Assembly: GCA_015548865.1 (NCBI GenBank)
Contig: JADMXW010000001.1
Coordinates: 186,001 to 250,000, forward strand
Direction of reading: 5' to 3'
DNA length: 64,000 bases
Source: Serratia marcescens
GTDB taxonomy: Bacteria; Pseudomonadota; Gammaproteobacteria; Enterobacterales; Enterobacteriaceae
Every line of letters begins with the position of its first letter. The stretch's first letter is position 1. Under the pieces are notes generated by a model. That model saw only the letters and a program-made list of their open reading frames with translations, was not told the DNA's origin and ran no database searches. Position numbers and translations under genes: made by a program. Positions 11,518 to 26,600 of this stretch are shown piece by piece.

Positions 11518-13155
11518 TTATTTTTGCGCTTCCACCCAGACGTCAGACAGGGTGTTTTCAATGCCGTCCGCCGTGAGCGAGTGATCGTGTACACGCTTAT
11601 TATAAATCGTGATGTACTGCGGTGAAATCAGGCTGATATCTGGCAGTTCACGCCCGACGATTTTCTGAAATTCGATAAACTTCTGCTTACGCACTGCCGG
11701 ATCGTTCTCGGTTTGTGCCTCTTCCAGCAAACGATCGACCTCGGCATTCTGGTAGTGAGACGCATTGGAGAAAGGCACTCCTTTGCGGAAATTCTTCGAC
11801 CAATAAATGCGTTGTACTCCCACCGTAGGATCGAACAGATTGCTGTGTCCATTTAACGTAAATGAGAAATCGCGATCGGTATACACACGTTTCACAAAGG
11901 CGGATAAATCCTGCGAGCGCAGCGTGACGTCAATACCGATCTTTGCCAGAGACGAGCGCACGATCTCCCCAGTGGGTTTCAAACCGTCGGATATCGGATT
12001 GTAATCCAGCGTGGTTTTAAAGCGGATACCCTTGGCATCACGCGGATAACCCGCTTCATCCAGCAGTTGATTCGCGCGTGTGATATCCAGCCCGTAGGGA
12101 GAGGGAGACGGATCGTGGAAGGCCTTCAACCCCGGCGCGATGGGCGATGTGGTCACCGTGGCATAGCCGTAATAAGCGACTTTGCGAATCAGCTCTCGGT
12201 CTAACGTATGGGCAATCGCCTGACGGACTTTCAAGTTTTTGAAATGCTCATCATCCAGATTGAACTGAAGCGAAGATACGTTATAAGAATAGCTGGTGCC
12301 TTTGGTTTCAAACGCCAGTTTTGGTATCGCTTTCAGACGATCCAGATCGCTGAGCGCCACCGGTGAACGATAGCCGAGATCCACGGTGCCAGTTTCAAAC
12401 GCGACCGATCGCGATGAAGCGTCAGGAATAAAGCGGATGACAATCTGATCGACATACGGTTTTTCTTTGTCCCAATAGTTGGGATTGCGTTTGAGGATCA
12501 GGTGGCTACCGCGTTCCCATTGGCTAAACAGGTAGGGGCCGGTGCCGATCGGTGCACTACCGTTCGGGTTTTTAAGCGGATCGGTATTTTCGTAGATATG
12601 CTTGGGTAATATCGGCGACTCTGCTGCTGTCAGTGCGCGTAAAAGATAGGGGGCAGGCTGCGACAGTTCAATCACCGCTGTGTTGGCATCTGGCGTTCTT
12701 ACCTCTGTGACGCTGGCAAAGGTGCTGGCACCACGTGGGTGATATTTCTTGAGCAGTTCTATTGAGTAGGCCACGTCCGCCGAGGTGAAATCTTTTCCAT
12801 CATGCCATTTCACCCCTTGTCTCAAATGAAAAGTATAAGATTTACCATCAGGGCTGACTTCCCACGAGGTTGCCAACTGCGGCTGAGGATTGAGATCGAA
12901 ATCGTATTTCAGCAACCCTTCCGTCACTTTGCCGCTGACACTCAGGCTCGGTGTAGCAACAGTGGACAGCGCCACCAGTGTAGGCGGTTCGGCGTTCAAT
13001 ACGATATTCAATGTGCCGCCGCGCTGCGGCTCCGGCGTTTGTGCATATACTGTTGCACCGCTGGTGGCTAACAGGGTGTACAGCGCCAGCGTTGCTGCTA
13101 GCGTTACCGGACGCTGTTGACGCTTTTTCCCTAAACGAAAGTCTAACCAATTCAT
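11518..13155 (-). CDS. ABC transporter substrate-binding protein, family 5 (orphan)
   Basis: A 545-residue periplasmic binding protein of the peptide/opine/nickel type (SBP_bac_5, DppA/OppA fold). A basic N-terminus (KKRQQR) and hydrophobic stretch end at VYAQ, a good signal peptidase I site. The family block YTFHLRQGVKWHDGKDFTSADV and GTGPYLF are clear. ATG 13155 is preferred to the GTG two codons upstream because GAGGTG lies five bases before it. It is the last gene of the hyuA-hyuB operon, 29 bases after hyuB, so it probably delivers the substrate of those enzymes. No permease or ATPase of the Dpp type is next to it, so it must borrow a membrane complex or be a relic. Confidence 0.88.
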   Translation of the reverse strand: MNWLDFRLGKKRQQRPVTLAATLALYTLLATSGATVYAQTPEPQRGGTLNIVLNAEPPTLVALSTVATPSLSVSGKVTEGLLKYDFDLNPQPQLATSWEVSPDGKSYTFHLRQGVKWHDGKDFTSADVAYSIELLKKYHPRGASTFASVTEVRTPDANTAVIELSQPAPYLLRALTAAESPILPKHIYENTDPLKNPNGSAPIGTGPYLFSQWERGSHLILKRNPNYWDKEKPYVDQIVIRFIPDASSRSVAFETGTVDLGYRSPVALSDLDRLKAIPKLAFETKGTSYSYNVSSLQFNLDDEHFKNLKVRQAIAHTLDRELIRKVAYYGYATVTTSPIAPGLKAFHDPSPSPYGLDITRANQLLDEAGYPRDAKGIRFKTTLDYNPISDGLKPTGEIVRSSLAKIGIDVTLRSQDLSAFVKRVYTDRDFSFTLNGHSNLFDPTVGVQRIYWSKNFRKGVPFSNASHYQNAEVDRLLEEAQTENDPAVRKQKFIEFQKIVGRELPDISLISPQYITIYNKRVHDHSLTADGIENTLSDVWVEAQK

Positions 13156-13184
13156 AAGCACCTCAACCTTGTCATGCGTTGTCG

Positions 13185-14882
13185 TTATTTGTTTTCATCA
13201 CCGTAGTGGTAATCACGGCTGGCGGCTTGTGCGCTAACCAGGCCGCTGCGTACATCCTGCGCGATAGCGTGCGGTGAGCGCTCGCGCGCATCGCCCAAAC
13301 CGCCGCCGCCCGGCGTTTCTACGACAAGGTGCTCTCCCGGAGGGATTGCTTGTCGACCTTTACCTTTTAGCCGTGCGCCAGAGGCCAGACTCACTCTGCC
13401 CGGCGCGCCATCTGCACCGCCTTCTGCGCCACGAGCGGGATAAACGATGCGATCCCATGCCGCGCCCAGTAACATGGGTGCCTGTTGCCCATGCGAGATT
13501 TCGATGACTTGCCCCAGCCCTCCGCGTTGCCTGCCTGCGCCGCCGGAGTCAGGCCGGTACTCCTTACGCCAAAACACCAACGGACTCATGGTTTCCAGAA
13601 TTTCGATGGAGATATTGCGTACGCCGCTGGGGAACGAGGTGGTGGACAGCCCATCCAGCTCAGGGCGACCACCGGTACCGCCGGTTGAAAAACTGGTGAT
13701 GGTAAATCGCTGTTCATTGACCAAACGCTCGTTGGAATAGCCCGTAATGGGGTGGCCACCCGACAAGCGGATATTCCACAGCGATGAGGAGCCTTCGGCT
13801 GGCACTGTACCGGGACGCGCCTGACGCAAGCAGCCGAAAACCACATCTGGCAACAGTTGGCCGATAATGTGGCGTGCGGCCACTGCCGCAGGATAGGGGG
13901 CATTGACAATGGAACCTTCCGGCGCGGTAACACGAATGACGCCTAACGATCCGGCATTGTTGGGAATATCGGCGCCAATCAGGCAGCGAATGCCAAACGA
14001 GGTGTAGGCATCGGTATAGGCCTTAACCACATTAATGCCTTGAGGAACATACGGATCGGTACCGGTAAAATCGACTTCAATTTCGCCGTCTCGAATGTGT
14101 AGCGTAGCGCGAATGCGGATTGGCGCGTCATAGCCATCCACCAGCAGTTCATTGCTCCAGCTTCCTTGAGGCCACTGGCGTACCGCATCGCGCATCGCCT
14201 GCTCAGAGTGTTGTAATATATGCTCGCCCACTGGCACGAGTGAATCGAGGGAGAATTCATCCATCATGCGGTTGAGGAAGCGAGCGCCGACGTCGTTACA
14301 GGCGACCAGCGCCAACAAATCGCCCTCAACCTGTTCCGGTTCACGCACGTTGGCACGAATAATATCCAGCACCACCTGATTGATATGGCCGCCATCGATA
14401 AAGCGCAGCAGTGGTAAAAACAACCCTTCGTGATAGATCAACTGACCATCGGGTCCTGGGCCTAAGCCACCGATATCCGCGACGTGCAGCGTAGAAGCGA
14501 ACAGGCCAACGGCTTGTTCCTGACGAAATACGGGTGTCACCATCGTCATATCGTATAAATGGCCGGTCCCTTTCCAGGGATCGTTGGTTAAAAACACATC
14601 GCCTGGACGCATTTCTTCCAGCGGGAACGCGTGCAGGAAGTGCTTGACGGATTCCGCCATTGAATTGACATGGCCCGGTGTGCCTGTAACGGCTTGCGCG
14701 ATCATGCGTCCATCCGGCAAAAAGACCCCCGCGGATAAATCACCGGCTTCTCGGGTTGAGGTACCAAACGCGGTACGGATCAGTGCCTGCGCTTGTTCCT
14801 CCACCACGGAAATCAGCCGATTCCACATCACCTGATACTGCAATGCTGTCACTGGAGCAGGTACGGAAGTTGGGTTACTCAT
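13185..14882 (-). CDS. Hydantoinase B/oxoprolinase family protein
   Basis: A 565-residue HyuB-type subunit. HyuA/HyuB pairs carry out ATP-dependent opening of hydantoins, 5-oxoproline or related lactams, or act as carboxylases. Family features include TNDPWKGTGHLYDMTM near residue 95, PEGSIVNAPYPAAVAARH, and a C-terminal GGGGLGDARERSP. ATG 14882 overlaps the end of hyuA by eight bases (ATGAGTAA), implying coupled translation and equimolar subunits. The exact substrate cannot be read from sequence; N-methylhydantoin, 5-oxoproline and caprolactam-like compounds are all possible. Confidence 0.88.
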   Translation of the reverse strand: MSNPTSVPAPVTALQYQVMWNRLISVVEEQAQALIRTAFGTSTREAGDLSAGVFLPDGRMIAQAVTGTPGHVNSMAESVKHFLHAFPLEEMRPGDVFLTNDPWKGTGHLYDMTMVTPVFRQEQAVGLFASTLHVADIGGLGPGPDGQLIYHEGLFLPLLRFIDGGHINQVVLDIIRANVREPEQVEGDLLALVACNDVGARFLNRMMDEFSLDSLVPVGEHILQHSEQAMRDAVRQWPQGSWSNELLVDGYDAPIRIRATLHIRDGEIEVDFTGTDPYVPQGINVVKAYTDAYTSFGIRCLIGADIPNNAGSLGVIRVTAPEGSIVNAPYPAAVAARHIIGQLLPDVVFGCLRQARPGTVPAEGSSSLWNIRLSGGHPITGYSNERLVNEQRFTITSFSTGGTGGRPELDGLSTTSFPSGVRNISIEILETMSPLVFWRKEYRPDSGGAGRQRGGLGQVIEISHGQQAPMLLGAAWDRIVYPARGAEGGADGAPGRVSLASGARLKGKGRQAIPPGEHLVVETPGGGGLGDARERSPHAIAQDVRSGLVSAQAASRDYHYGDENK

Positions 14883-17010
14883 GATGAAAATCCTCTGTGC
14901 CAAGCTCAAGTATCAGATGCCCCTGTGGACTAAGATGGGCTGAAAAACCGCTGTCCACGACGGTGGTGGTTTCCTCTTCCACAACCAGCGCCGGACCAGG
15001 TATATAGTGCTCCTGCGTTAACGCCGTGCGCTCATGGAGTGGCGTGGCAGTGAAGGCGTTATGCTCAATCTGAAACACCGAACGCTGGTGTTGCGATGGG
15101 GCGGCGACCCGCGTGCTACTCGGCGTCCAGCGAGCTGCCGCTGGCGCAAGGTCGTCATGGGTCGAAGCGGCAACCGACCAACTGATAGCCTCAACCGGCA
15201 CATGGTCGAGACTGCGGCCATACAGCTCGCGATAGCGCTGTGCGAAACGCGTTTGCAGTAGGTGAACAGTTTGCGCCTGCACGGTACCGTCCGGCAGTTC
15301 GATAGGGACTTCATGCCCTTGGCCTGCATAACGCAGATAGACGATGCGCTGTACCTGAATATCCCCTTGCGGCGCAGCCTGACGCACAATGGCGGTCGCT
15401 TGTTCGGTTAATCCGGCTAGCAGCGCGTTGATCTCATCATGGTTCACACCATCCAGCCGTTGATAGAAACTGCGTACCGCCTGATAGGCGATAGGGGCCC
15501 AGAGGAAACCCAGCGCCGAGCCAACACCGGCAGAACGAGGGATCACGACGCGGTTAATACCCAGCTTGCGAGCTAATCGTGCCGCCTGAAGCGGTGCGGC
15601 ACCGCCAAAGGCGATAAGGGTATAGTGCTCAACGTGTTTGCCTTGTTCGCTGGCATGTACGCGTGCTGCGTTAGCCATATTCTCTGCCACGATCTCCGCG
15701 ACAGAGAGCGCCGCCAGATCGGCGGAGTAGCCCAGCAGTGCACCAATTTGTGCGGCGAGTGCCTGCTGTGCTGCTTCAATGTTTAAGGCCACTTTACCGC
15801 GGGCGAAGCGCGCTGGGTCCAAACGACCGAGTACCGCATTGGCATCGGTTACCGTGGCCTGCGTGCCGCCTAATCCATAGCTGACTGGCCCCGGTTCAGA
15901 ACCGGCGCTGTCCGGCCCAACCTGAATGCGTTGCAAGGTATCAACACGAGCAATCGAGCCGCCACCTGCACCGATCTCCACCATTTCGATCACCGGAATA
16001 CGGATCGGCAGTCCTGATCCTTTTTGGTAACGGTGCACGCGGCCAAATTCGAAGTTGCGGGAAATTTGCGGCTGATAATCATCGATAAAGCAGATTTTCG
16101 CTGTGGTCCCTCCCATATCGAACGACAGCGCTCGGGTTTCACCTAATTCTGCTGCCACGCGCTGCGCCAGAATAGCGCCACCCGCCGGGCCGGATTCAAC
16201 CAGTCGTACCGGTTGTTCGATGCCGGTTTGCAGCGTAGTGATCCCGCCGCCAGAGGTCATAAGAAATAGCGGTATGTGCAGCCCGCGCGAGGTTAACAGT
16301 TGCTCCAAACGTGACAGATAGCCTGCCACTTGTGGTTGCACGTAAGCGTTCGCGCAGGTTGTAGAAAGTCGTTCGTATTCGCGCACTTCCGGGCAGACCA
16401 CACTGGAAAGCGACACGGTGAGGTGAGGCAATTCTTGTTGCAGGATCTCGGCAACGCGTTGTTCATGCTTCGGATTACGATAGCTGTGCAGCAGCACCAC
16501 GGCGACGCTGTCAATATCTTCATCACGCAGCGTCTGCGCAATGCGCCTCACATCGTCTTCATTGAGCGGCAGCAGCACGTCTCCCTGCGCGTTGATGCGT
16601 TCGGTGACGCCAAAGCGCCAATAACGCGGCACCAACGGAGCGGGTTTTTGCAGGAATACATCGTACTGCGCGAAGCGGTCTTCCAGGCCGATTTCAACCA
16701 GATCGCGAAATCCCTGGGTGGTGATCAATGCTGTGCGCGCCCCTTTGCGCTCAATCAGCGCATTGGTGGCAAGCGTGGTACCGAGTATCAACAGATCAAC
16801 ATCATGCAGCGTCCTGCCTGCGAACTTAAGGTTCTCTTCGATACCTTGCAGTACACCCTGTTCCGGCTCAGTGGGCGTGGTCAGGGTTTTTGACGTATAA
16901 CGTCGTTCACCATCAAGCAATACAACATCGGTAAAGGTGCCACCAACATCAACAGCCAGACGTATTGCGGACTCCGGTTTATCTTGCGGGGAAAGCGGTA
17001 ATTCAGACAT
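14875..17010 (-). CDS. Hydantoinase A/oxoprolinase family protein
   Basis: A 711-residue HyuA-type ATPase subunit of the ASKHA fold. Phosphate-binding loops are visible: DVGGTFTDVVLLDG near residue 22 and SFDMGGTTAKICF near 300, with ATNALIERKG and GPVSYGLGGTQATVTDANAVLGRL typical of the family. It is the first gene of hyuA-hyuB-SBP. The start at 17010 (MSELPLSP) is chosen because upstream codons are not family-like, although the ribosome site is weak. The 256 bases upstream to the next gene are AT-rich with no recognised operator. Confidence 0.88.
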   Translation of the reverse strand: MSELPLSPQDKPESAIRLAVDVGGTFTDVVLLDGERRYTSKTLTTPTEPEQGVLQGIEENLKFAGRTLHDVDLLILGTTLATNALIERKGARTALITTQGFRDLVEIGLEDRFAQYDVFLQKPAPLVPRYWRFGVTERINAQGDVLLPLNEDDVRRIAQTLRDEDIDSVAVVLLHSYRNPKHEQRVAEILQQELPHLTVSLSSVVCPEVREYERLSTTCANAYVQPQVAGYLSRLEQLLTSRGLHIPLFLMTSGGGITTLQTGIEQPVRLVESGPAGGAILAQRVAAELGETRALSFDMGGTTAKICFIDDYQPQISRNFEFGRVHRYQKGSGLPIRIPVIEMVEIGAGGGSIARVDTLQRIQVGPDSAGSEPGPVSYGLGGTQATVTDANAVLGRLDPARFARGKVALNIEAAQQALAAQIGALLGYSADLAALSVAEIVAENMANAARVHASEQGKHVEHYTLIAFGGAAPLQAARLARKLGINRVVIPRSAGVGSALGFLWAPIAYQAVRSFYQRLDGVNHDEINALLAGLTEQATAIVRQAAPQGDIQVQRIVYLRYAGQGHEVPIELPDGTVQAQTVHLLQTRFAQRYRELYGRSLDHVPVEAISWSVAASTHDDLAPAAARWTPSSTRVAAPSQHQRSVFQIEHNAFTATPLHERTALTQEHYIPGPALVVEEETTTVVDSGFSAHLSPQGHLILELGTEDFHHE

Positions 17011-17266
17011 AACGCGAACGTGTTCCAATGCTGTTTCTAAACCATCACCGCGCTGCGTGTGAAAACACACAACGCGTGGCAATGCTCAGGGGAGATGACT
17101 CGATGGAAGCACTATCGGGGGATATAACGGACAAAACAATAAAGTATATTTGCTAACAATATGCAGAATAAGCAATAGGGTGCTATGTGGTTTGCCACCT
17201 TCCACGGGTTGTCTTGCGATGAGCATGAGGATGGCGGCAATCACGTTAGGGTATGTATCGAGGAAA

Positions 17267-17956
17267 CTACAACGATGCTCCACCGCAGATAACCAACTGC
17301 TGGCCGGTAATGGCTGCGGCAGACGGTGAGAGCAGATAGCACACCAGATCGGCCACTTCCTGCGGCTGGATGAAACGGCCGATCGGGGGTAACTTCGGCG
17401 GTGAACTCTGTCTGCCAGGCTGGTTTAGCATAGGGGTTTCCGTGGCTCCCGGTGCCACGATATTGACCGTGATACCGCGCGGTGCCAATTCTGCCGCCCA
17501 ACTTCTTACCATACCGATCATGGCGGATTTAGTGGTCACATACTGGCTGCGTCCTGCTGCGCCGCTGGAGGTTCGGCTACCGAGCAGTATGATACGTCCA
17601 CCGCTCGGCAATTTATCTACCAGTCTATCGGCCAGCACTTCTGCAACCTGCACATGTAAACGCCACAGCTTTTCGCTGTCACCCACATTGAGTTGGCCCA
17701 ACGGGGCCGCTTTCATCATACCTGCAGCGTGAATCACGGCATCGACTTGTGCGATGTGCGCAAGATAACCTTGCAGCGCGTCGAGATCGGTGACGTCCAA
17801 CGCTTGGTGGGTAAACTGCGGATGCGTGAGCGCGCCGGGGTGACGCGACAACCCTGTCACTGTCCATCCCTGATCCAACAGCGTTTGGGCAATGGCGGCA
17901 CCAATGCCGGAGCTGGTGCCGGTAATCAGCGCATGTTTGCGTTCGCTGACAGCCAT
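17267..17956 (-). CDS. Short-chain dehydrogenase/reductase
   Basis: A 229-residue classical SDR. The nucleotide-binding glycine motif TGTSSGIG is at residues 12-19, HAAGMM replaces NNAG, the catalytic Ser lies in LLGSRTS and the Tyr/Lys pair in YVTTK; the C-terminus has the usual GQQLVICGG. Last of a six-gene operon running from the iron alcohol dehydrogenase, 32 bases behind the YhcH-type gene. Its substrate is probably an intermediate or epimer of the sugar acid handled by the operon, but this is inference. Confidence 0.88.
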   Translation of the reverse strand: MAVSERKHALITGTSSGIGAAIAQTLLDQGWTVTGLSRHPGALTHPQFTHQALDVTDLDALQGYLAHIAQVDAVIHAAGMMKAAPLGQLNVGDSEKLWRLHVQVAEVLADRLVDKLPSGGRIILLGSRTSSGAAGRSQYVTTKSAMIGMVRSWAAELAPRGITVNIVAPGATETPMLNQPGRQSSPPKLPPIGRFIQPQEVADLVCYLLSPSAAAITGQQLVICGGASL

Positions 17957-17988
17957 AAGGTGCTCTCCTGTATTAAGATCGGCCAGTG

Positions 17989-18465
17989 CTACAACTGGGC
18001 TAAATAGCTGACGGGCACTTTAAACACCGCTTTTTTTACCGGTGCGGGAATATCGCCTATCGCGCACAGCGCCTGATGCGGTTCTCCGGGGTAGAACGTG
18101 ACAAAATCCCCTGTGCGCAAGAGGATCTGATGAGGTACCTGAGGATTATCTAAAATATAGAGATCTGGCTTACGCTCGGTAGCGGGTTGCCCAATGACAC
18201 TGTTCAGCCCATAACCGATGATCTCTTCCCCGGCCAGAATTAACTGAATATCCAGAAAGTTGTGGTGAAACTCGGTATGACGTTCTGCCTGTGGTGCGGT
18301 AGATACGGTACCAATACTGTAAAACCAGTCAGCGCCTTCCAGCTGATATTTCCCTTCCGGTTTGGCGTTTAATTCATCCAACGTCATGCCGGGCGAGGAG
18401 AGAATCGCTAACAGCGGTGCGGGCAGCGTCGCCAAGGGTAAATGCTGCAAATTGCCTGCAATCAT
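17989..18465 (-). CDS. YhcH/YjgK/YiaL family protein (sugar-acid anomerase type)
   Basis: A 158-residue DUF386 cupin. Metal-binding histidines are visible in ERHTEFHHNFLDIQ and in PGEPHQA. Known relatives include NanQ (YhcH), the N-acetylneuraminate anomerase, and YiaL/YjgK of sugar-acid operons. Its presence next to a sialidase-like protein and an aldolase suggests it opens the ring of an ulosonic acid before cleavage. The start at 18465 is fixed by CAGGAG seven bases upstream; a longer frame begins at 18492. Confidence 0.88.
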   Translation of the reverse strand: MIAGNLQHLPLATLPAPLLAILSSPGMTLDELNAKPEGKYQLEGADWFYSIGTVSTAPQAERHTEFHHNFLDIQLILAGEEIIGYGLNSVIGQPATERKPDLYILDNPQVPHQILLRTGDFVTFYPGEPHQALCAIGDIPAPVKKAVFKVPVSYLAQL

Positions 18466-18484
18466 GGTGTAGCTCCTGATGAAA

Positions 18485-18510
18485 AGAGACACCGCAAACG
18501 CGGTGTCTCT
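18485..18510. terminator. Intra-operon hairpin (attenuator or processing site)
   Basis: AGAGACACCGC and GCGGTGTCTCT form a perfect 11-base stem with a four-base loop in the 52-base gap after the sialidase-like gene. On the minus strand it is followed by CTTTT, a weak terminator, so it probably reduces expression of the YhcH-type and SDR genes or stabilises the upstream mRNA. Confidence 0.6.
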
Positions 18511-18517
18511 CGGTGTA

Positions 18518-19696
18518 TCAACCTTTTACCCATGCCTCATCGACACACACATACTTGATGGCCTGACGGAAATAGGTGAAGGCCACATGCAATTTCCCTT
18601 CCGGTCCCTGCTTGATGCTGGGATAGGAGAACTCGCGGTTCAGCTTCTGCTGCGAGTTATTGGTCATGCAATAGCCGTCGCCCACTTCGATATTTCGCTG
18701 CCACGGCCAGGTCTTGCCGCCATCTTCCGAAATGGCCAGCGTCATGGGGGCGCGCGGTGCACCCCAGAAGGCGCTGCGCCCTTCGGTAATTTCCGGCATC
18801 TTGGCGTCATTGCCACCTTCTTCATCTTCGATTTCGTCATACAGCGACACGCGGCGCTCGGTGGCATCGGCTGCGCTCATGTGGTTGAATACCAGCGCCA
18901 GATGGCCATTTTGCAGCGTAGTCACCTGAATGGACGAGTTATTGTTTGGCAACGTGGTGGGCACCGGCACCGACCAGGTTTTGCCGCCATCCGTGGAGTG
19001 GCTACGATAAATAAAGTCAGCCCACCGGCTGCGGAACAGCGCCAGCAGTGAACCGTCCGCCAGCGGCGTGATGTTCATGTGGACACAGCCTGTGCTGTTC
19101 GGCACTGGGTATTCCTGCCAGGTTTTACCCTGATCGCTGGAGATTTTGACAGCGCTGTCGTCGTTGTTACCTACCCACTTCTCACCCGGCTCTACGCGGC
19201 AATAGAACACCGGCAGCAGCCAGTCACCGTTCGGCAGTACGGTGATCGGCTGGCGAATAAAGGTGCCCGGCTGATCGAGCAGTGTGCCGATTTCCCCCCA
19301 GGTGTGGCCCAAGTCGGTAGATTGACGGTAACGCACAATGGCGGTGTCCTGATTACCGGATTTCTGTGCGGTATACAGCAGCCACAGCACGCCGTCTGGT
19401 GCCAGAAACAGCACCGGGTTCTGCTCGGAGCGCGTAGCATCTTCCGATAACTTAACCGCTTGTGACCACTGCGCGCTGCCGTTAGCCAGACGCGACTGGT
19501 AAATCGAGATATCCGCAATCCCTTCCTGCGTACCGCCAAACCAGACGCACAGCACATCGCCATTCGGCAGATGCAGCAGGTTGGCCGCGTGGTTTTGTGG
19601 GCAGACGGAGGGCAGATAGGCATCAATGCGCTGCGCATCCCCTTCGACCTGATGAATTACGCCAGTACGTTCTACGGTGATGGTTTCAGTCGTCAT
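18518..19696 (-). CDS. Sialidase-like BNR/Asp-box protein
   Basis: A 392-residue six-bladed propeller protein of the BNR_2/sialidase superfamily. Four Asp boxes are visible: STDLGHTW (126-133), SSDQGKTW (~187), STDGGKTW (234) and SEDGGKTW (323). Candidate active-site arginines occur (RQPITVLP, FRSRWADF). No FRIP motif and no signal peptide are seen, so it is cytoplasmic and not a standard sialidase. Annotation pipelines call this family exo-alpha-sialidase, but sialic acid is not a plant sugar; relatives in GH33 act on Kdo or Dha of rhamnogalacturonan II. It is six bases from the symporter gene, so the two are tightly coupled: uptake of a glycoside then internal cleavage is a reasonable reading. 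Confidence 0.82.
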   Translation of the reverse strand: MTTETITVERTGVIHQVEGDAQRIDAYLPSVCPQNHAANLLHLPNGDVLCVWFGGTQEGIADISIYQSRLANGSAQWSQAVKLSEDATRSEQNPVLFLAPDGVLWLLYTAQKSGNQDTAIVRYRQSTDLGHTWGEIGTLLDQPGTFIRQPITVLPNGDWLLPVFYCRVEPGEKWVGNNDDSAVKISSDQGKTWQEYPVPNSTGCVHMNITPLADGSLLALFRSRWADFIYRSHSTDGGKTWSVPVPTTLPNNNSSIQVTTLQNGHLALVFNHMSAADATERRVSLYDEIEDEEGGNDAKMPEITEGRSAFWGAPRAPMTLAISEDGGKTWPWQRNIEVGDGYCMTNNSQQKLNREFSYPSIKQGPEGKLHVAFTYFRQAIKYVCVDEAWVKG

Positions 19697-19702
19697 GACG
19701 AA

Positions 19703-21121
19703 TTAGGCTCCTGGTTGAGTAACGGATGTTTTCTTTTCTGACCGAATCGCGTTCTTGTTCGGAATCAGACGATCCAGGCACATCACGATGGCAGGGGTTG
19801 CCAATGCAACATACATGTTATCGATGCCAAACGGGTTGCCCATCACATACCATACTGATGTCACCACGCAGGCAGCAATCAGGCTGGCATTGGCACCGCG
19901 AGCGCTGTTAAAGAACGGCAGGTAGAAGGCAATCATTGCAACCACCGAGATGGACAGACGAATGGCACGGGTAAAGAACGACAGCTTCAGCACTTCAGGC
20001 ACCAGCAGCACGAAGACCAGCGGCAGGAAACCGATGATGAGCGAGAACACACGCGTCATCTTCATCTCTTTTTCCGGCGTCGGGTTGTAGTACGGTACGT
20101 AGAAGTCTTTCACGATCAGCGAAGCAATTGCCAGTGCCACGGTACTTACGCTGATAAAGATAGATGCAACCAGCGAGGTGGTGACCAGACCGGCGACCCA
20201 CGGGTTCATGTCTTGCAGGAACACCGGCAGTGCATACAGGCTCTTGATTTCTGGGTGGACGAACTTGGCAGCCACACCGATCACTGCGATAGCCAGTGCA
20301 ATCGGCATACAGAACAGGAAGGCAATCCAGGTGGCGCGTTTGGCGGATGCTGCATCTTTGGTCGCGGAAATCGCCTGAATCACGAACTGGGTACAGAAAA
20401 TCGAACCGATAGTACCGATCAACCAAGCGAAGATAGTACTCGCACCGATGTTGCCATCCCAGGTCCAGTAGAACTCTGGCATCTGCTGAACCATCGGGGT
20501 AATACCGCCGGTCATTTTCAAGGCCACGTACAGGATGATCATTACACCGATGTACTTCACGCCGCTGTGGATCAGGGTGACATACGCCACGCCTTTCAAC
20601 CCACCGAAGTAGAAGTAGAAAGTACTGACGATCGCCGTGATCAAGGCTGCCACCGGCAGAGAGATTTTCAGTACGGTGGAGATAGCCGCCGCGCCGCTGA
20701 CGTAGTTACCCACGTTCACCAGCAACAGGGCATAGATCATGATGATCGAAATAATGTTTTTAGTCGATGTACCGTACTTCTCGGCGATAGCGCCGGAAAT
20801 GGTGACTTTACCGGTGTTATAGATCTTCTTTACCAGGATCATGCCGAACAGCAGGAAGCCGATGGCGGCACCGATCACGGACCAAGAGGCGGCGATGCCA
20901 CTTTCAAATGCGGCCTGCGCAGTACCTACCGTGGATTTTGCGCCGATAAACTCGGTCATCAGCAAAATACCGACGATAAACGCGGGCAGCGCGCGCGACC
21001 CTTCCATGAATTCGGAGCTGGATTTACTGCGTAATTTCAGCGTCAGCCAGGAGGTGAACGCGATATAAAACACTATCATCCCGATGATGATGAGGGTGTC
21101 TGTCAGATCAAAATGGTTCAT
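19703..21121 (-). CDS. Sodium:solute symporter (SSS family)
   Basis: A 472-residue inner-membrane protein with about 13 predicted transmembrane helices. The N-terminus is SSS-like (SWLTLKLRSKSSSEFMEGSRALPAFIVG, then GAKSTVGTAQAAFESG), and SISTVALAIASLIVKDFY corresponds to the sodium-site helix. Members of this family import sialic acids, sugars, pantothenate and proline. Operon position between the DapA-like and sialidase-like genes points to a sugar acid or its glycoside as cargo. Confidence 0.88.
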   Translation of the reverse strand: MNHFDLTDTLIIIGMIVFYIAFTSWLTLKLRSKSSSEFMEGSRALPAFIVGILLMTEFIGAKSTVGTAQAAFESGIAASWSVIGAAIGFLLFGMILVKKIYNTGKVTISGAIAEKYGTSTKNIISIIMIYALLLVNVGNYVSGAAAISTVLKISLPVAALITAIVSTFYFYFGGLKGVAYVTLIHSGVKYIGVMIILYVALKMTGGITPMVQQMPEFYWTWDGNIGASTIFAWLIGTIGSIFCTQFVIQAISATKDAASAKRATWIAFLFCMPIALAIAVIGVAAKFVHPEIKSLYALPVFLQDMNPWVAGLVTTSLVASIFISVSTVALAIASLIVKDFYVPYYNPTPEKEMKMTRVFSLIIGFLPLVFVLLVPEVLKLSFFTRAIRLSISVVAMIAFYLPFFNSARGANASLIAACVVTSVWYVMGNPFGIDNMYVALATPAIVMCLDRLIPNKNAIRSEKKTSVTQPGA

Positions 21122-21182
21122 ATCTTTCGACCTATCGTTGTTGTCGCAGGGTTGTTGTTATTAAACAGGGTGATAAATGTTC

Positions 21183-22064
21183 TTATGCAAACGGGCTGAC
21201 AATCTGACGGATAGCCGCTTCATCCTGTTCAGAGAACTGAATGGGATAGCGACTGACGCCAACGTCATGTCCCATTAACGTCAGCGCTTTTTTCACTGCC
21301 GCAGGAGAGAACGCAACGGCATACAGCGTTTTTCTTAGCTCGCTGACCTGTTCTTGCGCCTGACGTGAGCCTTCGATATCGCCGGCGTGGAAGCGGTGCC
21401 AGATTTGGCTGATAGCCTCTGGCGCCACATTGGCCAGCCCGGAAATACAGGCGGAGCAACCTTCGATGAAGCCTTGGTGAATCAATGAATCCGGCCCGTT
21501 GAGGACATCAAAATTCGGTATACCTTTAGCCGCTTGCAGGAAACCATTGAGGCTTTCATAGCTACCAGCACTGTCCTTGATGCCGATGATGTTGGGATGA
21601 TCGGCCAGAATGCGCACAGTTTCGGGCGTAAGCGTATTTCCAGTGCGTGCAGGGATGTTGTAGAGGAACACTGGAACGGTTAACGCATCTGCCACTGCGC
21701 GGTAATGTGCGATCAGTTCTTCTTGTTTCAGCGGAATAAAATAAGGTGTGATAACCGAAACCGCATCGACGCCCAGTGCTGCAATACGCTTGCCGAGTTT
21801 GATGGTTTCACGCGTAGAAATTTCACCGATGTGGCCTACCACCGGCACTTTACCTGCCACTTCATCGACACAGGTTTCGGTGACCGCGACTTTTTCGTCG
21901 GTGTGTAATACGAAAAATTCACCATTGGTACCATTACAGAAGATACCGTTGCCATACTGCATCTGGCGCTGGATCTGCGCGCGCAGAGCCGTTGGATTGA
22001 ATTCACCCTGACCGTCAAAGGGCGTGACGATTGCGGTCAACACGCCGGTAATACGTTTGCTCAT
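21183..22064 (-). CDS. DapA/NanA-family pyruvate aldolase
   Basis: A 293-residue TIM-barrel class I aldolase. The Schiff-base lysine is K163 (GIKDSAGS), the catalytic Tyr is Y135 and the pyruvate loop is GTNGEF (45-50). Y135 sits in YNIPARTGN: the Arg-Thr-Gly is that of dihydrodipicolinate synthases, where the Arg binds the carboxylate of aspartate semialdehyde, not the YNIPALSG of sialate lyases. This suggests a product or substrate that is a carboxylated aldehyde. It is unlikely to be the housekeeping DapA because of the catabolic operon context (49 bases after Fe-ADH, before the symporter). Confidence 0.88.
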   Translation of the reverse strand: MSKRITGVLTAIVTPFDGQGEFNPTALRAQIQRQMQYGNGIFCNGTNGEFFVLHTDEKVAVTETCVDEVAGKVPVVGHIGEISTRETIKLGKRIAALGVDAVSVITPYFIPLKQEELIAHYRAVADALTVPVFLYNIPARTGNTLTPETVRILADHPNIIGIKDSAGSYESLNGFLQAAKGIPNFDVLNGPDSLIHQGFIEGCSACISGLANVAPEAISQIWHRFHAGDIEGSRQAQEQVSELRKTLYAVAFSPAAVKKALTLMGHDVGVSRYPIQFSEQDEAAIRQIVSPFA

Positions 22065-22113
22065 TGTTTTTCCTCGTTACTGCGTAATCAAAAAAGAACA
22101 TCAAGTCTGTGAA

Positions 22114-23250
22114 TTAGAACAGCGTTAAATAAATATCACGCACGTCGTCCGCCTTCACCGCGGCGGGCACGTTTTTCATAAGACGCTGAACCTGCAAAGC
22201 CCCTTCAACCAGATCGGGCAAATGCGTTTTTTCGATACCTAATTGTTGCAGTGAGCTGGGCAGCGCGAGGCGCTGTACCAGATCGGTGAAATAGGTGACC
22301 AGTGCGTGCGACTTCTCTGTGACGGAGAGCGACAGGTTGGCTTCGGGCAGCAGGTCATAGGCCTGTGCAAATTTCTCTTCTACTGCCGGGCGTACAAAGC
22401 GCATGCAAGGAGCCAGCAGGATGGCATTCGCCACGCCGTGGGGAATATGGTATTTGCCGCCTAACGGGTAAGACATGGCATGTACCAGATGCGTGCCCGC
22501 GTGGGCAATGGCGGCACCACCGTAATAGGATGCCCACAGCATGTTCAGCCGTGCTTCCAGATTCTCGGGTTCACGAATGGACAGTTCGATATTGGCAAAC
22601 AGCTTTTTTAAACCGATCAGTGCGTAGTTATCCCCTACCGGGTTGGCGATTGTCGCGGTGAAGCATTCAATCAGATGGCAAAGCGCATCAATACCAGTAG
22701 ACGCCGCAATGTGAGACGGCATGCTGGTGGTCAATTCTGGCACCAGCGCGACATAGTCCGGCAGCATAACGGGTGTGATGATGCCGACCTTGGTCGCTTT
22801 CTCAGGAATCGCCAGAATGGCGTTCGGTGTGGCCTCTGAGCCCGTACCAGCGGTGGTGGGGATCAATAAAGAGGCGGTGCGACGTGTCGGTTTTTCACCC
22901 GCCAACAACGTTTCAAGGGAGACTGCATCATCGCCCACGCACAGCAGCGACAGTAGTTTGGCAACATCCAATACGCTGCCGCCGCCTACGCCAATCACCA
23001 GTTCAGTGCGGGCGTTGGGCAGCGCTTCAAGAATATGGGAGACATCGTGTTGGCTTGGTTCTGGCGGCACATTATCAATCAGAGTGATGGCCGGCACGTT
23101 CGCTTTAACCTGATTGAGCAGCGCCTGTACGCCTGGTTGCTGCACGATATTGCGGTCAGTCACGAAAAGAACGTGCTGGCGCGAGGTTAACAGGTAGCGG
23201 ATATCGTTAATGGCCTGGCTGCCGCTGATGATAGTGCTATTGATGTTCAT
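22114..23250 (-). CDS. Iron-containing alcohol dehydrogenase
   Basis: A 378-residue group III alcohol dehydrogenase. NAD-binding GVGGGSVLDVAK (87-98) and PTTAGTGSEAT (131-141) are followed by the metal ligands D188 and H192 (GIDALCHLIE), H257 and H271 (HAMSYPLGGKYHIPHG). Family members include succinic semialdehyde and lactaldehyde reductases. It is the first gene of the six-gene operon and is divergent from the kinase operon. The best-fitting role is reduction of a C4 semialdehyde acid released by the adjacent aldolase (inference). Confidence 0.88.
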   Translation of the reverse strand: MNINSTIISGSQAINDIRYLLTSRQHVLFVTDRNIVQQPGVQALLNQVKANVPAITLIDNVPPEPSQHDVSHILEALPNARTELVIGVGGGSVLDVAKLLSLLCVGDDAVSLETLLAGEKPTRRTASLLIPTTAGTGSEATPNAILAIPEKATKVGIITPVMLPDYVALVPELTTSMPSHIAASTGIDALCHLIECFTATIANPVGDNYALIGLKKLFANIELSIREPENLEARLNMLWASYYGGAAIAHAGTHLVHAMSYPLGGKYHIPHGVANAILLAPCMRFVRPAVEEKFAQAYDLLPEANLSLSVTEKSHALVTYFTDLVQRLALPSSLQQLGIEKTHLPDLVEGALQVQRLMKNVPAAVKADDVRDIYLTLF

Positions 23251-23392
23251 GGCGTTCCTTTACAGTGTTCACGCAGTGAAAGTGATTTTTATCAATCAAT
23301 ACGTGCTTTGAGATCGTGTGTTGACGTAATGGCGTCATTTTGTAGGGTGATTTATAGGCTAAATTGCTTTTAAATAATTTGATGTTGCTCAC

Positions 23393-23422
23393 ATATAATC
23401 AAATATGATTCAATATGATCAT
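23393..23422. promoter_or_regulatory. Three tandem 10-base repeats, candidate DeoR operator
   Basis: ATATAATCAA, ATATGATTCA and ATATGATCAT follow each other without a gap, so equivalent bases face the same side of the helix. They lie in the 230-base region between the divergent Fe-ADH and kinase operons, 58 bases before the kinase ATG, the expected place for the operator of the DeoR regulator encoded in the kinase operon. Confidence 0.5.
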
Positions 23423-23480
23423 TATCAGGTGATCGACACACAATCGTCGGTATGCCGTTATCGATAAATAAGGGGTGGAT

Positions 23481-24791
23481 ATGCCACAGCGGCAAGATGT
23501 CAGCCTGGAAAAAACAGCAAGCCAGGTGTTGGTCGTCGCGGATGATTTCACCGGGGCTAACGATGCCGGGGTTGGATTGGCTCTTCAGCAGGCTCAGGTC
23601 AATGTGATTCTGGATTTGGATGCATTGACGACGGGAACCCTGCATGAGGTGACGGTTATCAATACGGATAGCCGGGCGCAGGCCGCGCAAGACGCTGCGC
23701 TGCGCGTAATGCATGCCGTGACCCGCTGGCGCGAAGCGGGCGGAAACGGTTGGGTATTTAAGAAGATTGACTCCACGCTGCGTGGCAACCTCGGCGCGGA
23801 GATTGCGGCGGCCTTGACTGCCAGCGATGCAGCGATGGCATTGATTGCGCCAGCGGTACCGGCGCTGGGTCGTATCACGCGAGACGGGAAAGTCTGGGTC
23901 AACGGAAAACTGCTGACTGAAACTGAATTTGCCAGCGACCCGAAAACGCCGGTGCATAGTGCAGACATTGCCGAACGCATTGCCGAACAGAGTGCTTTGA
24001 CGATGGCGACACTCATTGTGAGTGAAAATAATCATTCTGCTCTTGCCGCGCAGCTTTTGCGTTTGCGTGACGAAGGTATCAAAGGCGTCATTATTGATGC
24101 CCATACGCCGCAGGATTTGGAGCTGATCGTAGCTGCAGCACAAACATTGCCAGTGAAACCACTGTTAGTGGGGGCTGCCGGGCTCAGTGATGCGTTAGCT
24201 CAGGCGCTGTGTTTTACCCCGCGTCCTCGGCCTGCATTACTGGCTGTAGTTGGCTCGATGAGTGAAATGACGCACAAGCAGATTACTGCGGTGAGCGCGC
24301 TGTCACAGGTGACATTGCTCGATGTGGATATCCGTCCTTTATTTACGCCTGCGGGAGCCGCATTGGCACAAGACACCGCGCGTGTGGCGGCCGCCGCGCT
24401 GCTGGCTGGCAAGCACTGCTTGGTTCGCACCTGCCGTGATGAACAACAGCGTCACGAGATTACGCAGTTATGCCAACAGTACGCCCTTAGTCGCCAGCAA
24501 TTGGGTGAACGCATCAGTGATTTTCTGGGGGAAATGGTGCGTTGCACAGTGGCTCTGTGCCGCCCGGCAGGGCTTTATCTTTCCGGTGGCGACGTGGCGA
24601 TTTCAGTGGCTGCTGCGCTCGGTGCTACCGGGTTCCATATCAAAGGACAACTTGCGTCCTGTGTACCTTGGGGACGCTTCATCGACAGCATCGTCGGCGA
24701 TATCCCTGTCATGACTAAAGCAGGCGGCTTCGGTGATGAAGCCACCTTGCATCACGTTTTACGCTTTATTGAGGAGAGAGTGAGTGAGTAA
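23481..24791 (+). CDS. dtnK: Four-carbon acid sugar kinase (DUF1537), DtnK-like
   Basis: A kinase of 436 residues in the DUF1537 family. The N-terminal domain has VVADDFTGANDAG and FKKIDSTLRGN, which bind the acid substrate; the C-terminal ATP domain contains YLSGGDVAISVAAALG and ends in TKAGGFGDEATLHHVL. Characterised members phosphorylate D-threonate (DtnK), D-erythronate/L-threonate or 3-oxo-tetronate. Pairing with PdxA2 is the D-threonate arrangement (kinase plus dehydrogenase giving DHAP). ATG 23481 is chosen because AAGGGG lies five bases upstream. It overlaps the next gene by eight bases. Confidence 0.87.
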   Translation: MPQRQDVSLEKTASQVLVVADDFTGANDAGVGLALQQAQVNVILDLDALTTGTLHEVTVINTDSRAQAAQDAALRVMHAVTRWREAGGNGWVFKKIDSTLRGNLGAEIAAALTASDAAMALIAPAVPALGRITRDGKVWVNGKLLTETEFASDPKTPVHSADIAERIAEQSALTMATLIVSENNHSALAAQLLRLRDEGIKGVIIDAHTPQDLELIVAAAQTLPVKPLLVGAAGLSDALAQALCFTPRPRPALLAVVGSMSEMTHKQITAVSALSQVTLLDVDIRPLFTPAGAALAQDTARVAAAALLAGKHCLVRTCRDEQQRHEITQLCQQYALSRQQLGERISDFLGEMVRCTVALCRPAGLYLSGGDVAISVAAALGATGFHIKGQLASCVPWGRFIDSIVGDIPVMTKAGGFGDEATLHHVLRFIEERVSE

Positions 24792-25764
24792 AATTATCGC
24801 GATAACGATGGGCGACCCTGCGGGTATCGGTCCTGAGATTATTATTAAATCCCTGGCACAAGGGGAATTGTCTGGTGCGCCTGCTGTCGTCGTGGGCTGT
24901 GTGCAAACGCTGCGTCGTGTCCTCGCGTTGAACATTGTGCCTCAGGTTGAGCTAAATGTGATTGACGAACCGGCCCAGGCGCGCTTTGCCCCTGGTATCA
25001 TTAATGTGATTGATGAGCCTGTAGCCGATTCCGAAGCGCTCAAGCCGGGCGTGGTGCAGGCACAGGCAGGCGATCTGGCCTATCGCTGCATTAAAAAAGC
25101 CACTGCGCTTGCTTTGGCTGGAGAGGTTCAGGCGATTGCTACCGCGCCGTTGAATAAGGAAGCGATGCATTCTGCGGGGCATATCTACCCTGGGCATACC
25201 GAGCTGTTGGCGAAACTGACGAATAGTCGGGATTACGCCATGGTGCTGTATACCGACAAACTAAAAGTCATTCATGTGACAACGCACATTGCATTGCGCA
25301 AATTCCTGGATACCCTAAACCGCGACCGTGTAGAAACGGTGATTGGCATGGCGGATACGTTCCTGAAACGCGTTGGTTACACCAAGCCGCGTATTGCGGT
25401 TGCTGGCGTTAACCCGCACGCGGGGGAAAATGGTCTGTTTGGTGATGAAGAAATTACCATTGTCGGGCCAGCCGTTGAGACCATGAAAGCCAAAGGGCTG
25501 GATGTGTACGGTCCCTGTGCGCCGGATACCGTCTATCTGCAAGCCTATGAAGGGCAGTATGATATGGTGGTGGCAATGTATCACGATCAGGGGCATATTC
25601 CGCTTAAGCTGCTTGGCTTTTATGATGGGGTGAATTTAACCGCAGGCTTGCCGTTTATTCGCACCTCTGCCGATCACGGAACGGCATTTGATATCGCCTG
25701 GACAGGTAAAGCGAAGTCTGAGAGCATGGCTATCTCGATCCAACTCGCCATGCAGCTTGCCTGA
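24784..25764 (+). CDS. pdxA2: 4-phospho-D-threonate 3-dehydrogenase, PdxA2-like
   Basis: A 326-residue PdxA-family enzyme, starting with [20 protein letters not shown] and carrying divalent-metal histidines in [11 protein letters not shown] and [13 protein letters not shown]. PdxA2 oxidises 4-phospho-D-threonate at C3 with loss of CO2 to form dihydroxyacetone phosphate. It lies in an operon with a DUF1537 kinase, not with pyridoxine or ksgA genes, so catabolic PdxA2 rather than vitamin B6 PdxA is favoured. The GTG start overlaps the kinase stop (GTGAGTAA), indicating translational coupling. Confidence 0.9.
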
Positions 25765-25784
25765 CAGGGGAGGGGATTCAACTC

Positions 25785-26600
25785 GTGGACATCGTTGTGG
25801 GGCAAACAGTGAGTGATGCTTTCCGCGTCAGCGGAGATAGAGTTAAAGGGCAGAGCCGTCTTGACCAGATTATGGATTATCTGAAAAGCCATAACCTGGT
25901 GACGGTAGACGAACTGGTTGCCGTGATCGACGCCTCTCCGGCGACGATCCGTCGCGATCTCATCAAGCTTGATGAACAGGGCGTGATTAGCCGCAGCCAT
26001 GGCGGCGTCACGCTCAACCGTTTTATTCCCTCTCAACCCACTACCAATGAGAAACTGCATCGCAATCTGGCGGAGAAGCAGGCGATTGCCCGTTACGCGG
26101 CCTCACTGGTACAACCGGGTGACGCCGTGGTGCTGGATGCGGGCACCACAACCCTCGAGTTGGCGCGCAACCTGACTCACCTGCCGCTGCGTGTAATCAC
26201 GGCAGATTTGCAGATTGCGCTGTTCTTATCGGAATTCAAACAGATTGAAGTCACCATTATTGGTGGTCGTATTGATGACAGCAGCCAGTCTTGCATTGGT
26301 GAACATGGTCGCCGCCTGTTACGCAGTATCTACCCTGATATTGCCTTTATCAGCTGTAACTCATGGAGTATGGAAAAAGGTATCACTACGCCAACAGAAG
26401 AGAAAGCAGGGGTAAAACAGGATTTGGGTATGAATGCCAGCCGCCGTGTGCTGCTTGCTGACAGCAGCAAATACGGTGCCTATTCGCTGTTTTGCGTTAC
26501 GCCGCTAACGGCACTCACCGACATCGTCACCGACAGCGCGCTTGCACCGGAGACACAGCAACTGCTTCATGCACAACCAGTGCAACTGCATTTGGTGTAA
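25785..26600 (+). CDS. DeoR-family transcriptional regulator
   Basis: A 271-residue repressor-type regulator. Residues ~25-80 form the DeoR helix-turn-helix ([42 protein letters not shown]) and the rest is a sugar-phosphate-binding DeoRC domain ([12 protein letters not shown]). The start is uncertain: GTG at 25785 follows GGGGAGGGGATT; a later GTG at 25809 is also possible. Third gene of the dtnK-pdxA2 operon, 20 bases downstream, so it probably senses a phosphorylated four-carbon acid and controls both divergent operons via the repeats at 23393-23422. Confidence 0.9.

Follow-up and report, generated by a model that had tools for sequence, protein, structure and literature searches.

In a 64,000-nucleotide stretch of the Serratia marcescens genome (assembly GCA_015548865.1, contig JADMXW010000001.1, positions 186,001 to 250,000; hereafter the window), nine open reading frames (ORFs), all present and open, form two divergent operons at positions 17267..26600, in which a DapA-type aldolase and an iron-containing alcohol dehydrogenase (Fe-ADH) are encoded opposite a DUF1537 kinase (DtnK) and the dehydrogenase PdxA2. 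Our results indicate that the aldolase and the Fe-ADH very probably feed the catabolism of D-threonate, giving pyruvate, dihydroxyacetone phosphate (DHAP), and CO2. This reading is based on the co-location of the genes, their nested occurrence across genomes, a shared operator, the curated cut-offs passed by the kinase and PdxA2, and a conserved arginine of the aldolase. As to the substrate, our best single guess, held at a probability of about 0.5, is 3-deoxy-D-lyxo-hept-2-ulosarate (Dha), a sugar diagnostic of plant rhamnogalacturonan II (RG-II), a polysaccharide.

A probable route from an aldolase to D-threonate and DHAP

Window proteins were assigned to families with Pfam and NCBIfam profiles using the curated NCBIfam cut-offs (Table 1). 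Gene positions, families, and the arrangement in two divergent operons agreed with an initial annotation made from the sequence alone, which had read the operons as a route from Dha to central metabolism. The kinase passes the curated D-threonate kinase model and PdxA2 passes its own curated model; the two genes are adjacent and their ORFs overlap by 8 bases. The closest solved structure for the kinase is 4xfm, which we take to contain D-threonate; for PdxA2 it is 6e85, which carries the name D-threonate 4-phosphate dehydrogenase. The kinase of a Pectobacterium cluster of the same type (L052) aligned over its full length to the solved chain 4xfm with few differences. Because the curated families are passed and solved relatives exist, this end of the pathway receives a strong assignment, in keeping with the initial annotation: DtnK and PdxA2 are predicted to convert D-threonate to D-threonate 4-phosphate and then to DHAP and CO2.

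In the aldolase, the Schiff-base lysine K163, the YNIP tyrosine Y135, and R140 were identified, and the RTG motif with an arginine of the dihydrodipicolinate synthase (DHDPS) type, to which the annotation had drawn attention, is real. K163 is kept in all 70 aligned cluster aldolases, and the position of R140 is basic in 67 of them (Arg in 54, Lys in 13). Among the DapA-family paralogs of the same genome, seven of eight of which entered the alignment, this position holds Arg in two and Leu or Pro in five. It presumably corresponds to Arg138 of Escherichia coli DHDPS, which we take to bind the carboxylate of a four-carbon aldehyde; the second product of the aldolase is therefore likely a carboxylated four-carbon aldehyde. 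The protein scores below the DapA equivalog cut-off TIGR00674 (193 vs 206) and below both NanA cut-offs (168 vs 281; 137 vs 382).

The stereochemistry was derived by hand. In Fischer projection, Dha has C4 left, C5 left, and C6 right. Breaking the C3-C4 bond yields pyruvate and OHC-C5-C6-COOH, and after reduction of the aldehyde and turning of the chain, C2 is left and C3 is right, which is D-threonate. The conversion that the annotation had proposed thus holds when redrawn. D-threonate fixes C5 and C6 of its precursor and not C4, so that Dha and its C4 epimer would both lead to D-threonate.

The proposed pathway would begin with the uptake of Dha, or of a small Dha conjugate, by the sodium:solute symporter (SSS). 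The cytosolic sialidase-like protein would free or rearrange the ring form, which YhcH would open. The aldolase, to judge from its family, residues, and context, would then split open-chain Dha into pyruvate and 2,3-dihydroxy-4-oxobutanoate, with R140 holding the far carboxylate, and the Fe-ADH would reduce the aldehyde to D-threonate, the presumed substrate of DtnK and, after phosphorylation, of PdxA2. The DeoR-family protein would act on both operons through the computed operator.

Table 1. Genes and operator-like element of the Serratia marcescens cluster (window positions)
Feature	Position	Strand	Evidence and remarks
SDR oxidoreductase	17267..17956	-	Pfam/NCBIfam; accessory
YhcH/YjgK/YiaL (DUF386) protein	17989..18492	-	PF04074 99 bits; TIGR00022 98 vs cut-off 45.5
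Sialidase-like protein (BNR_2, GH33-fold), core gene	18518..19696	-	Pfam/NCBIfam; cytosolic by sequence
Sodium:solute symporter (SSS)	19703..21121	-	PF00474; likely uptake
DapA-type aldolase (DHDPS family), core gene	21183..22064	-	PF00701 225 bits
Fe-containing alcohol dehydrogenase (Fe-ADH), core gene	22114..23250	-	PF00465/PF25137; putative C4-semialdehyde reductase
Conserved operator-like element TGATCATATTGAATCATATTTGATTATATGTGAGCAA, between the divergent operons	23385..23421	-	Matrix score 61.4
DUF1537 D-threonate kinase (DtnK), core gene	23475..24791	+	NF047819 563 bits vs cut-off 450; PDB 4xfm E 1.2e-145
PdxA2, D-threonate-4-phosphate dehydrogenase, core gene	24784..25764	+	NF002891 675 bits vs cut-off 583; PDB 6e85 E 8e-176
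DeoR-family regulator	25785..26600	+	PF00455/PF08220; presumed operator binder

Conservation, split loci, and a shared operator

A profile made from aligned sialidase-like proteins, searched against 84,980 species genomes, confirmed 560 relatives, and the best 80 loci were taken for a census, with loci L001-L045 standing outside it. All five core genes, namely those of the sialidase-like protein, the aldolase, the Fe-ADH, the DUF1537 kinase, and PdxA, occur together in 62 of the 80 loci and in several phyla; carriers include Pectobacterium, Dickeya, Rahnella, Erwinia, Klebsiella, Gilliamella, Lonepinella, Burkholderia and relatives, Azospirillum, Bacillus, Priestia, and Lucifera. The annotation had suggested looking for conservation in plant-associated bacteria; many carriers are of this kind, although E. 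coli and Klebsiella carry the cluster too. The 18 loci without the full core (L057, L061, L062, L064, L065, L066, L070, L071, L076, L080, L092, L096, L099, L100, L101, L104, L110, and L115) include some whose contig is short or cut off. The same set was found in plasmid records from Azospirillum, Rhizobium binae, Agrobacterium fabrum, and Roseateles; in Sinorhizobium meliloti (L042) the ORF calls give it in pieces, and Pantoea stewartii has it without the kinase. In two clusters from Burkholderiales, the DUF1537 kinase is fused to PdxA in one long ORF (L107:5982-8471, L108:5870-8377), the Paraburkholderia fusion of L107 being a Pfam-checked protein of 829 aa. By a distant single-gene search, a related sialidase-like gene was detected in 1043 of 5426 complete E. 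coli genomes, and a megablast search of the whole cluster against E. coli gave no match. The one E. coli cluster examined (L160) lies between glnS and nagE and includes an SLC13 permease.

Thirteen genomes in which core genes are missing from the sialidase-like locus were searched for PdxA2, and each gave a PdxA-family match, the weaker of which may be the vitamin B6 enzyme or fragments. In 10 stretches of 12-18 kb taken from these genomes (G297, G301, and G303 were left out), the genes for aldolase, ADH, kinase, and PdxA stand together elsewhere in nine, the exception being L155. The split loci therefore define two modules, one of aldolase, ADH, DtnK, and PdxA2, and the other of transporter, sialidase-like protein and, in part, YhcH and SDR.

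Orthologs were then counted among 295 genomes of the family, with E-value cut-offs of 1e-60 for aldolase and ADH and 1e-100 for PdxA2. The sialidase-like gene was found in 32 genomes (20 of 52 matched genomes, with distant, partial matches of best E 4e-15 to 1e-7, were not counted), the aldolase in 42, the ADH in 43, and PdxA2 in 73. The sialidase-like gene co-occurs with the aldolase in 31 of 32 genomes, the aldolase with the ADH in 42 of 42, and the aldolase with PdxA2 in 41 of 42 (Fisher p of 1.5e-31, 2.4e-50, and 6e-29, respectively, values that ignore relatedness). The occurrences are nested, the sialidase-like gene within aldolase and ADH and these within PdxA2, with G028 (49% complete) and G236 as exceptions: PdxA2 occurs without the rest, aldolase and ADH almost only with PdxA2, and the sialidase module almost only with aldolase and ADH. 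Such nesting is what one would expect if the pathway ends in D-threonate.

The operator, with the consensus TGATTATATTsAATCAnnnTTGATTATATGTGAGCAA, was found in 36 of 37 intergenic regions between kinase and ADH genes. The next independent best site in the window after that of Table 1 scores -14.5. In seven of seven Pantoea loci, none of which contributed to the operator matrix, the element lies upstream of a separate SSS-sialidase-like-SDR unit with scores of 22.7-45.5, the next best score in each locus being -1.2 or lower. Where dtnK-pdxA2 is split from the ADH-DapA genes, it precedes both halves (L166 with L173, L167 with L174). Across the 295 genomes it was detected at 47 sites in 43 genomes, and the reversed control gave 0 among the matches listed. 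It is present in 41 of the 42 aldolase genomes, is absent from G180 at up to 3 mismatches, and is weak in L093 (24 of 37). A single site of the 47 (G196:C1, 3 mismatches) lies away from a cluster and may be due to chance. In G114 (L206), a DeoR relative and the operator flank a cluster for D-threonate only, composed of a KdgT-like permease, a DtnK of 530 bits, and PdxA2.

The shared operator, which the DeoR-family protein presumably binds, is evidence separate from gene order that D-threonate catabolism belongs to one regulon with the aldolase, the ADH, and the sialidase-like gene. Together with the gene sets and the nesting, these data support well that the two operons are one system and not a chance neighbourhood, as the annotation had held when it combined them into a single pathway.

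Dha as the proposed substrate and the competing explanations

The two operons encode, besides the D-threonate core, proteins of a kind expected for ulosonic acids. By fold comparison, the sialidase-like protein has the beta-propeller of GH33 sialidases. Profile alignment with sialidase B and NanC identified R222 as one arginine of the sialidase triad; H36, D62, R315, and Y358 were aligned only by hand to sialidase motifs, in a comparison that concerned the Arg triad, the acid/base Asp, and the nucleophile Tyr. A phmmer search of the protein against the PDB gave short matches only. The BT1020 structure was not among the Foldseek and VIA-align matches listed, which is evidence neither way, and PADLOC gave no match for the protein. 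In the collection of named genomes, its closest relative, at 99%, is from Candidatus Symbiopectobacterium sp. NZEC151, a similarity that by itself would make this genus the probable source of the window. The YhcH protein reaches its family model TIGR00022 and stays below the NanQ equivalog NF040884 (100 vs 160); it likely opens or mutarotates a cyclic ulosonic acid.

Accessory genes vary across the 80 loci, with YhcH in 38, an SDR match in 59, and SSS in 68. The E. coli cluster L160 gave no SDR match, nor did Gilliamella or five Klebsiella/Escherichia/Pseudocitrobacter loci; the loci without it include L067, L068, L074 (Klebsiella), L082, L084, L093 (Gilliamella), and L095 (Lucifera). Loci of the census without SSS carry SLC13, TRAP, or NRAMP-like proteins instead, and an ABC transporter replaces the symporter in the rhizobial, agrobacterial, and Roseateles records. 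In Metabacillus and Priestia, a protein that appears NRAMP-like occupies the place of the symporter (L100:8608-9963; L106:8587-9957), and in E. coli (L160:10135-10893) and Klebsiella clusters an apparent TerC-family protein is encoded between the aldolase and the sialidase-like gene. Both families are usually tied to metals.

The surroundings of related clusters lend Dha further, moderate support. Matches to GH28 were found within about 10 kb in nine of the 80 loci, in Pantoea, Erwinia mallotivora, Bacillus altitudinis, B. pumilus, and B. safensis (Pfam-checked for L061, L079, and L088), and an altronate/galactarate dehydratase-family gene adjoins the Bacillus cluster. The GH28 gene is single in 14 of 20 such genomes, a chosen set that includes the nine. 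The GH33 fold and YhcH thus fit an ulosonic acid, and the GH28 and dehydratase neighbours fit a pectin context; since the GH28 neighbours perhaps represent three independent events, the support remains moderate.

Several observations weigh against Dha, or against individual steps of the route. The cluster carries no Dha-specific mark, Dha itself being chosen from the stereochemical fit and the context, and no RG-II glycosidase was found among the nine genes or elsewhere in the window. The sialidase-like protein appears cytosolic, and profile alignment with sialidase B and NanC puts His206 where sialidases have the catalytic glutamate of their Tyr/Glu pair. H206 is invariant across 35 aligned sequences, so that plain hydrolysis of a ketoside is uncertain. 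The annotation had related this Asp-box protein to GH33, and of that relation the fold stands and the catalytic residue does not. The Fe-ADH scores almost equally against 4-hydroxybutyrate dehydrogenase (NF058672, 209 bits vs a cut-off of 500), ErcA (207), and lactaldehyde reductase (207), all far below cut-off, and its match to a C4-semialdehyde enzyme is therefore nearly tied with that to lactaldehyde reductase. Three aldolases (L041, L102, and L121), which group with a Rhizobium-type aldolase, have no basic residue at the R140 position. In distant clusters, kinase scores fall below the NF047819 cut-off of 450 (Agrobacterium 96, Azospirillum 115, Rhizobium 128, Paraburkholderia fusion 189, Metabacillus 285, Lonepinella 423), and PdxA scores fall below 583 in Azospirillum (289) and Paraburkholderia (325). 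On the Pantoea stewartii plasmid (L039), no kinase match was found within the 21 kb examined; the gap between PdxA2 and ADH spans only about 500 bases (between 5944 and 6448) with the operator inside it, and the kinase may have been lost or may be sited elsewhere. With only a weak resemblance to the DASS model (57 bits vs a cut-off of 199), the permease of E. coli is poor evidence for a dicarboxylate. Finally, 11 genomes carry aldolase and ADH without the sialidase module, combined with an MFS carrier in 11 of 11 and a D-2-hydroxyacid dehydrogenase in 10 of 11, and simple Dha chemistry gives the latter enzyme no obvious role.

This second cluster type bears on the possibility, less probable than Dha and still worth serious attention, that the substrate is another C7 2-keto-3-deoxy-aldarate (for example the D-xylo epimer at C4), or a conjugate or reduced form of it, and that the core serves as a common funnel, leading the output of different upstream modules into D-threonate. 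Its MFS carrier is nearest to the D-galactonate type, below the cut-off of that model, and clusters of the MFS and 2-hydroxyacid dehydrogenase type are found under the same operator (L161-L172; also L149:12506-14936). Two upstream modules, one of BNR and YhcH proteins with varied transporters and the other of MFS carrier and dehydrogenase, feed the same core, and both coexist in Erwinia mallotivora (L079:6010-8405) and Lucifera (L095:4674-7012). The freedom at C4 noted above agrees with such a funnel. However, we know of no natural C7 2-keto-3-deoxy-aldarate besides Dha, which also accords with the ulosonic-acid-type proteins and the pectin neighbours.

An oxidative branch running alongside the aldolase route, with the SDR acting on C4 of the 2-keto-3-deoxy acid to give a diketo acid from which a FAH-family hydrolase releases pyruvate and tartrate, is improbable. 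The LRA5/LRA6 route of L-rhamnonate is a model for such a branch, SDR and FAH genes follow the sialidase-like gene in Azospirillum (L040:11281-12765), and in Pantoea rwandensis a tartrate dehydrogenase (572 vs a cut-off of 470; L061:6262-7380) is encoded near, and divergent from, the SSS-BNR-SDR genes. That gene may however belong to an ordinary D-malate/tartrate unit, no FAH-family member is found among the nine genes, and the best solved relatives of the SDR are mostly FabG-type reductases, with 2-deoxy-D-gluconate 3-dehydrogenase further down the list.

We also set aside, as quite unlikely, the catabolism of sialic acid, Kdo, or Kdn beside unrelated D-threonate genes, which the sialidase fold, YhcH, and an aldolase of the NAL/DHDPS family might suggest. 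The aldolase scores far below the NanA models, and NanA-type lyases, to our knowledge, have no Arg at the R140 position; genes of the nanE or nanK type are absent from the nine; Kdo would yield D-arabinose (hand derivation), and the cluster encodes no evident enzyme for this sugar; and the near-constant pairing of aldolase and PdxA2 speaks against unrelated neighbours. Least credible of all is a vitamin B6 side route in which 4-phosphohydroxy-L-threonine would be made or recycled by the DUF1537 kinase and the PdxA homologue: according to excerpts of PMC10971088 and PMC7954711, 4-hydroxythreonine can be a substrate of DUF1537 kinases, and an excerpt of PMC12928451 reads the E. coli gene pair as B6-related, but the genome carries a second PdxA at a separate site, the curated D-threonate models are passed, and B6 synthesis offers no role for the transporter, the aldolase, the ADH, or the sialidase-like protein.

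If Dha is the substrate, the cluster would represent the first complete microbial Dha route, spread from Bacillus to rhizobia, in which a cytosolic GH33-fold protein with His for Glu processes Dha as an enzyme of a novel type, aldolase and ADH yield pyruvate and D-threonate, and the MFS carrier with the D-2-hydroxyacid dehydrogenase forms a second entry for a related acid. We advance this full picture tentatively, with somewhat less confidence than Dha itself.

Relation to known systems and neighbouring genes

The cluster shares with D-threonate catabolism, reportedly described for DtnK-PdxA2 by Zhang et al. in 2016, the adjacent kinase and dehydrogenase above their cut-offs and a DeoR-type regulator beside them; it differs in that D-threonate is apparently made inside the cell by aldolase and ADH under the same operator. 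With sialic acid catabolism (NanA, NanQ, sialidase) it has the superfamilies in common, namely a NAL/DHDPS aldolase, YhcH, and the GH33 fold, whereas the scores here lie below the NanA and NanQ cut-offs, the aldolase has a DHDPS-type Arg, and a C4-acid branch takes the place of the hexosamine branch. The presumed ligand and the GH33-type fold recall BT1020, said to be the Dha hydrolase of RG-II, and the RG-II loci of Bacteroides thetaiotaomicron; the protein studied here differs in its predicted cytosolic location, in the His at the catalytic Glu, and in a window without RG-II glycosidases.

The initial annotation had known of no description of such a route. The gene set itself is already in print: an excerpt of PMC12928451 describes genomic region GR6 (nagE-glnS) of extraintestinal pathogenic E. 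coli, calls its gene set uncharacterized, and notes a similar S. meliloti cluster. That region matches the E. coli L160 set (DUF1537, PdxA, Fe-ADH, DapA, COG4692, EbgC/YhcH-like, CitT-like), and the excerpt, beyond its B6-related reading of the DUF1537/PdxA2 pair, proposes no substrate or pathway. Excerpts of further papers report that DtnK phosphorylates D-threonate, with reference to Zhang et al. 2016 (PMC10971088), and that Dha is a sugar of RG-II (PMC6353982, PMC7939467). Among the open-access full-text matches listed, no Dha catabolic route was recognizable by title or abstract, which is not proof of absence in print. As a whole, the earlier interpretation is partly supported.

Beyond the initial annotation, the analysis adds the shared operator, the sialidase-less cluster type with MFS carrier and 2-hydroxyacid dehydrogenase, the exchange of transporter classes, and the E. 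coli gene count. If the Dha reading is true, it would name a function for a gene set of Pectobacterium, Dickeya, rhizobia, bacilli, the bee bacterium Gilliamella, and the koala bacterium Lonepinella, and, judged by the sialidase-like gene, the same function in roughly one in five complete E. coli genomes. It would also explain a source of intracellular D-threonate and give a testable role to a family of cytosolic sialidase-like proteins of hitherto unassigned function. Even if Dha is wrong, the link from aldolase and ADH to D-threonate and the operator define a regulon open to substrate screening.

In Candidatus Symbiopectobacterium endolongispinus (L054), the kinase, symporter, and sialidase-like genes are fragmented, the aldolase is interrupted by a stop, and the operator is weakened, an apparent decay consistent with loss in an insect symbiont. 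In several Pectobacterium species (L047:13229-16520, also L048, L050, and L051), genes for an apparent glycyl-radical enzyme and its activase adjoin the cluster. A Monoglobus relative of the sialidase-like protein (26%), without a PDB match at E 1e-5, adjoins GH51-, GH106-, and GH95-type enzymes, a weak context. Downstream of the Serratia cluster (window 11518-17082) are a family-5 binding protein and ORFs that resemble HyuB and HyuA; the binding protein adjoins the cluster at a high score only in Symbiopectobacterium L046 and L054 of the 80 loci and is probably unrelated to it. The same Serratia genome encodes a second pair of sialidase-like and DapA-family proteins (G000:C55, L205:5885-12434), accompanied by an apparent transporter binding protein and an apparent FGGY-type kinase, and such pairs may be a recurring theme.

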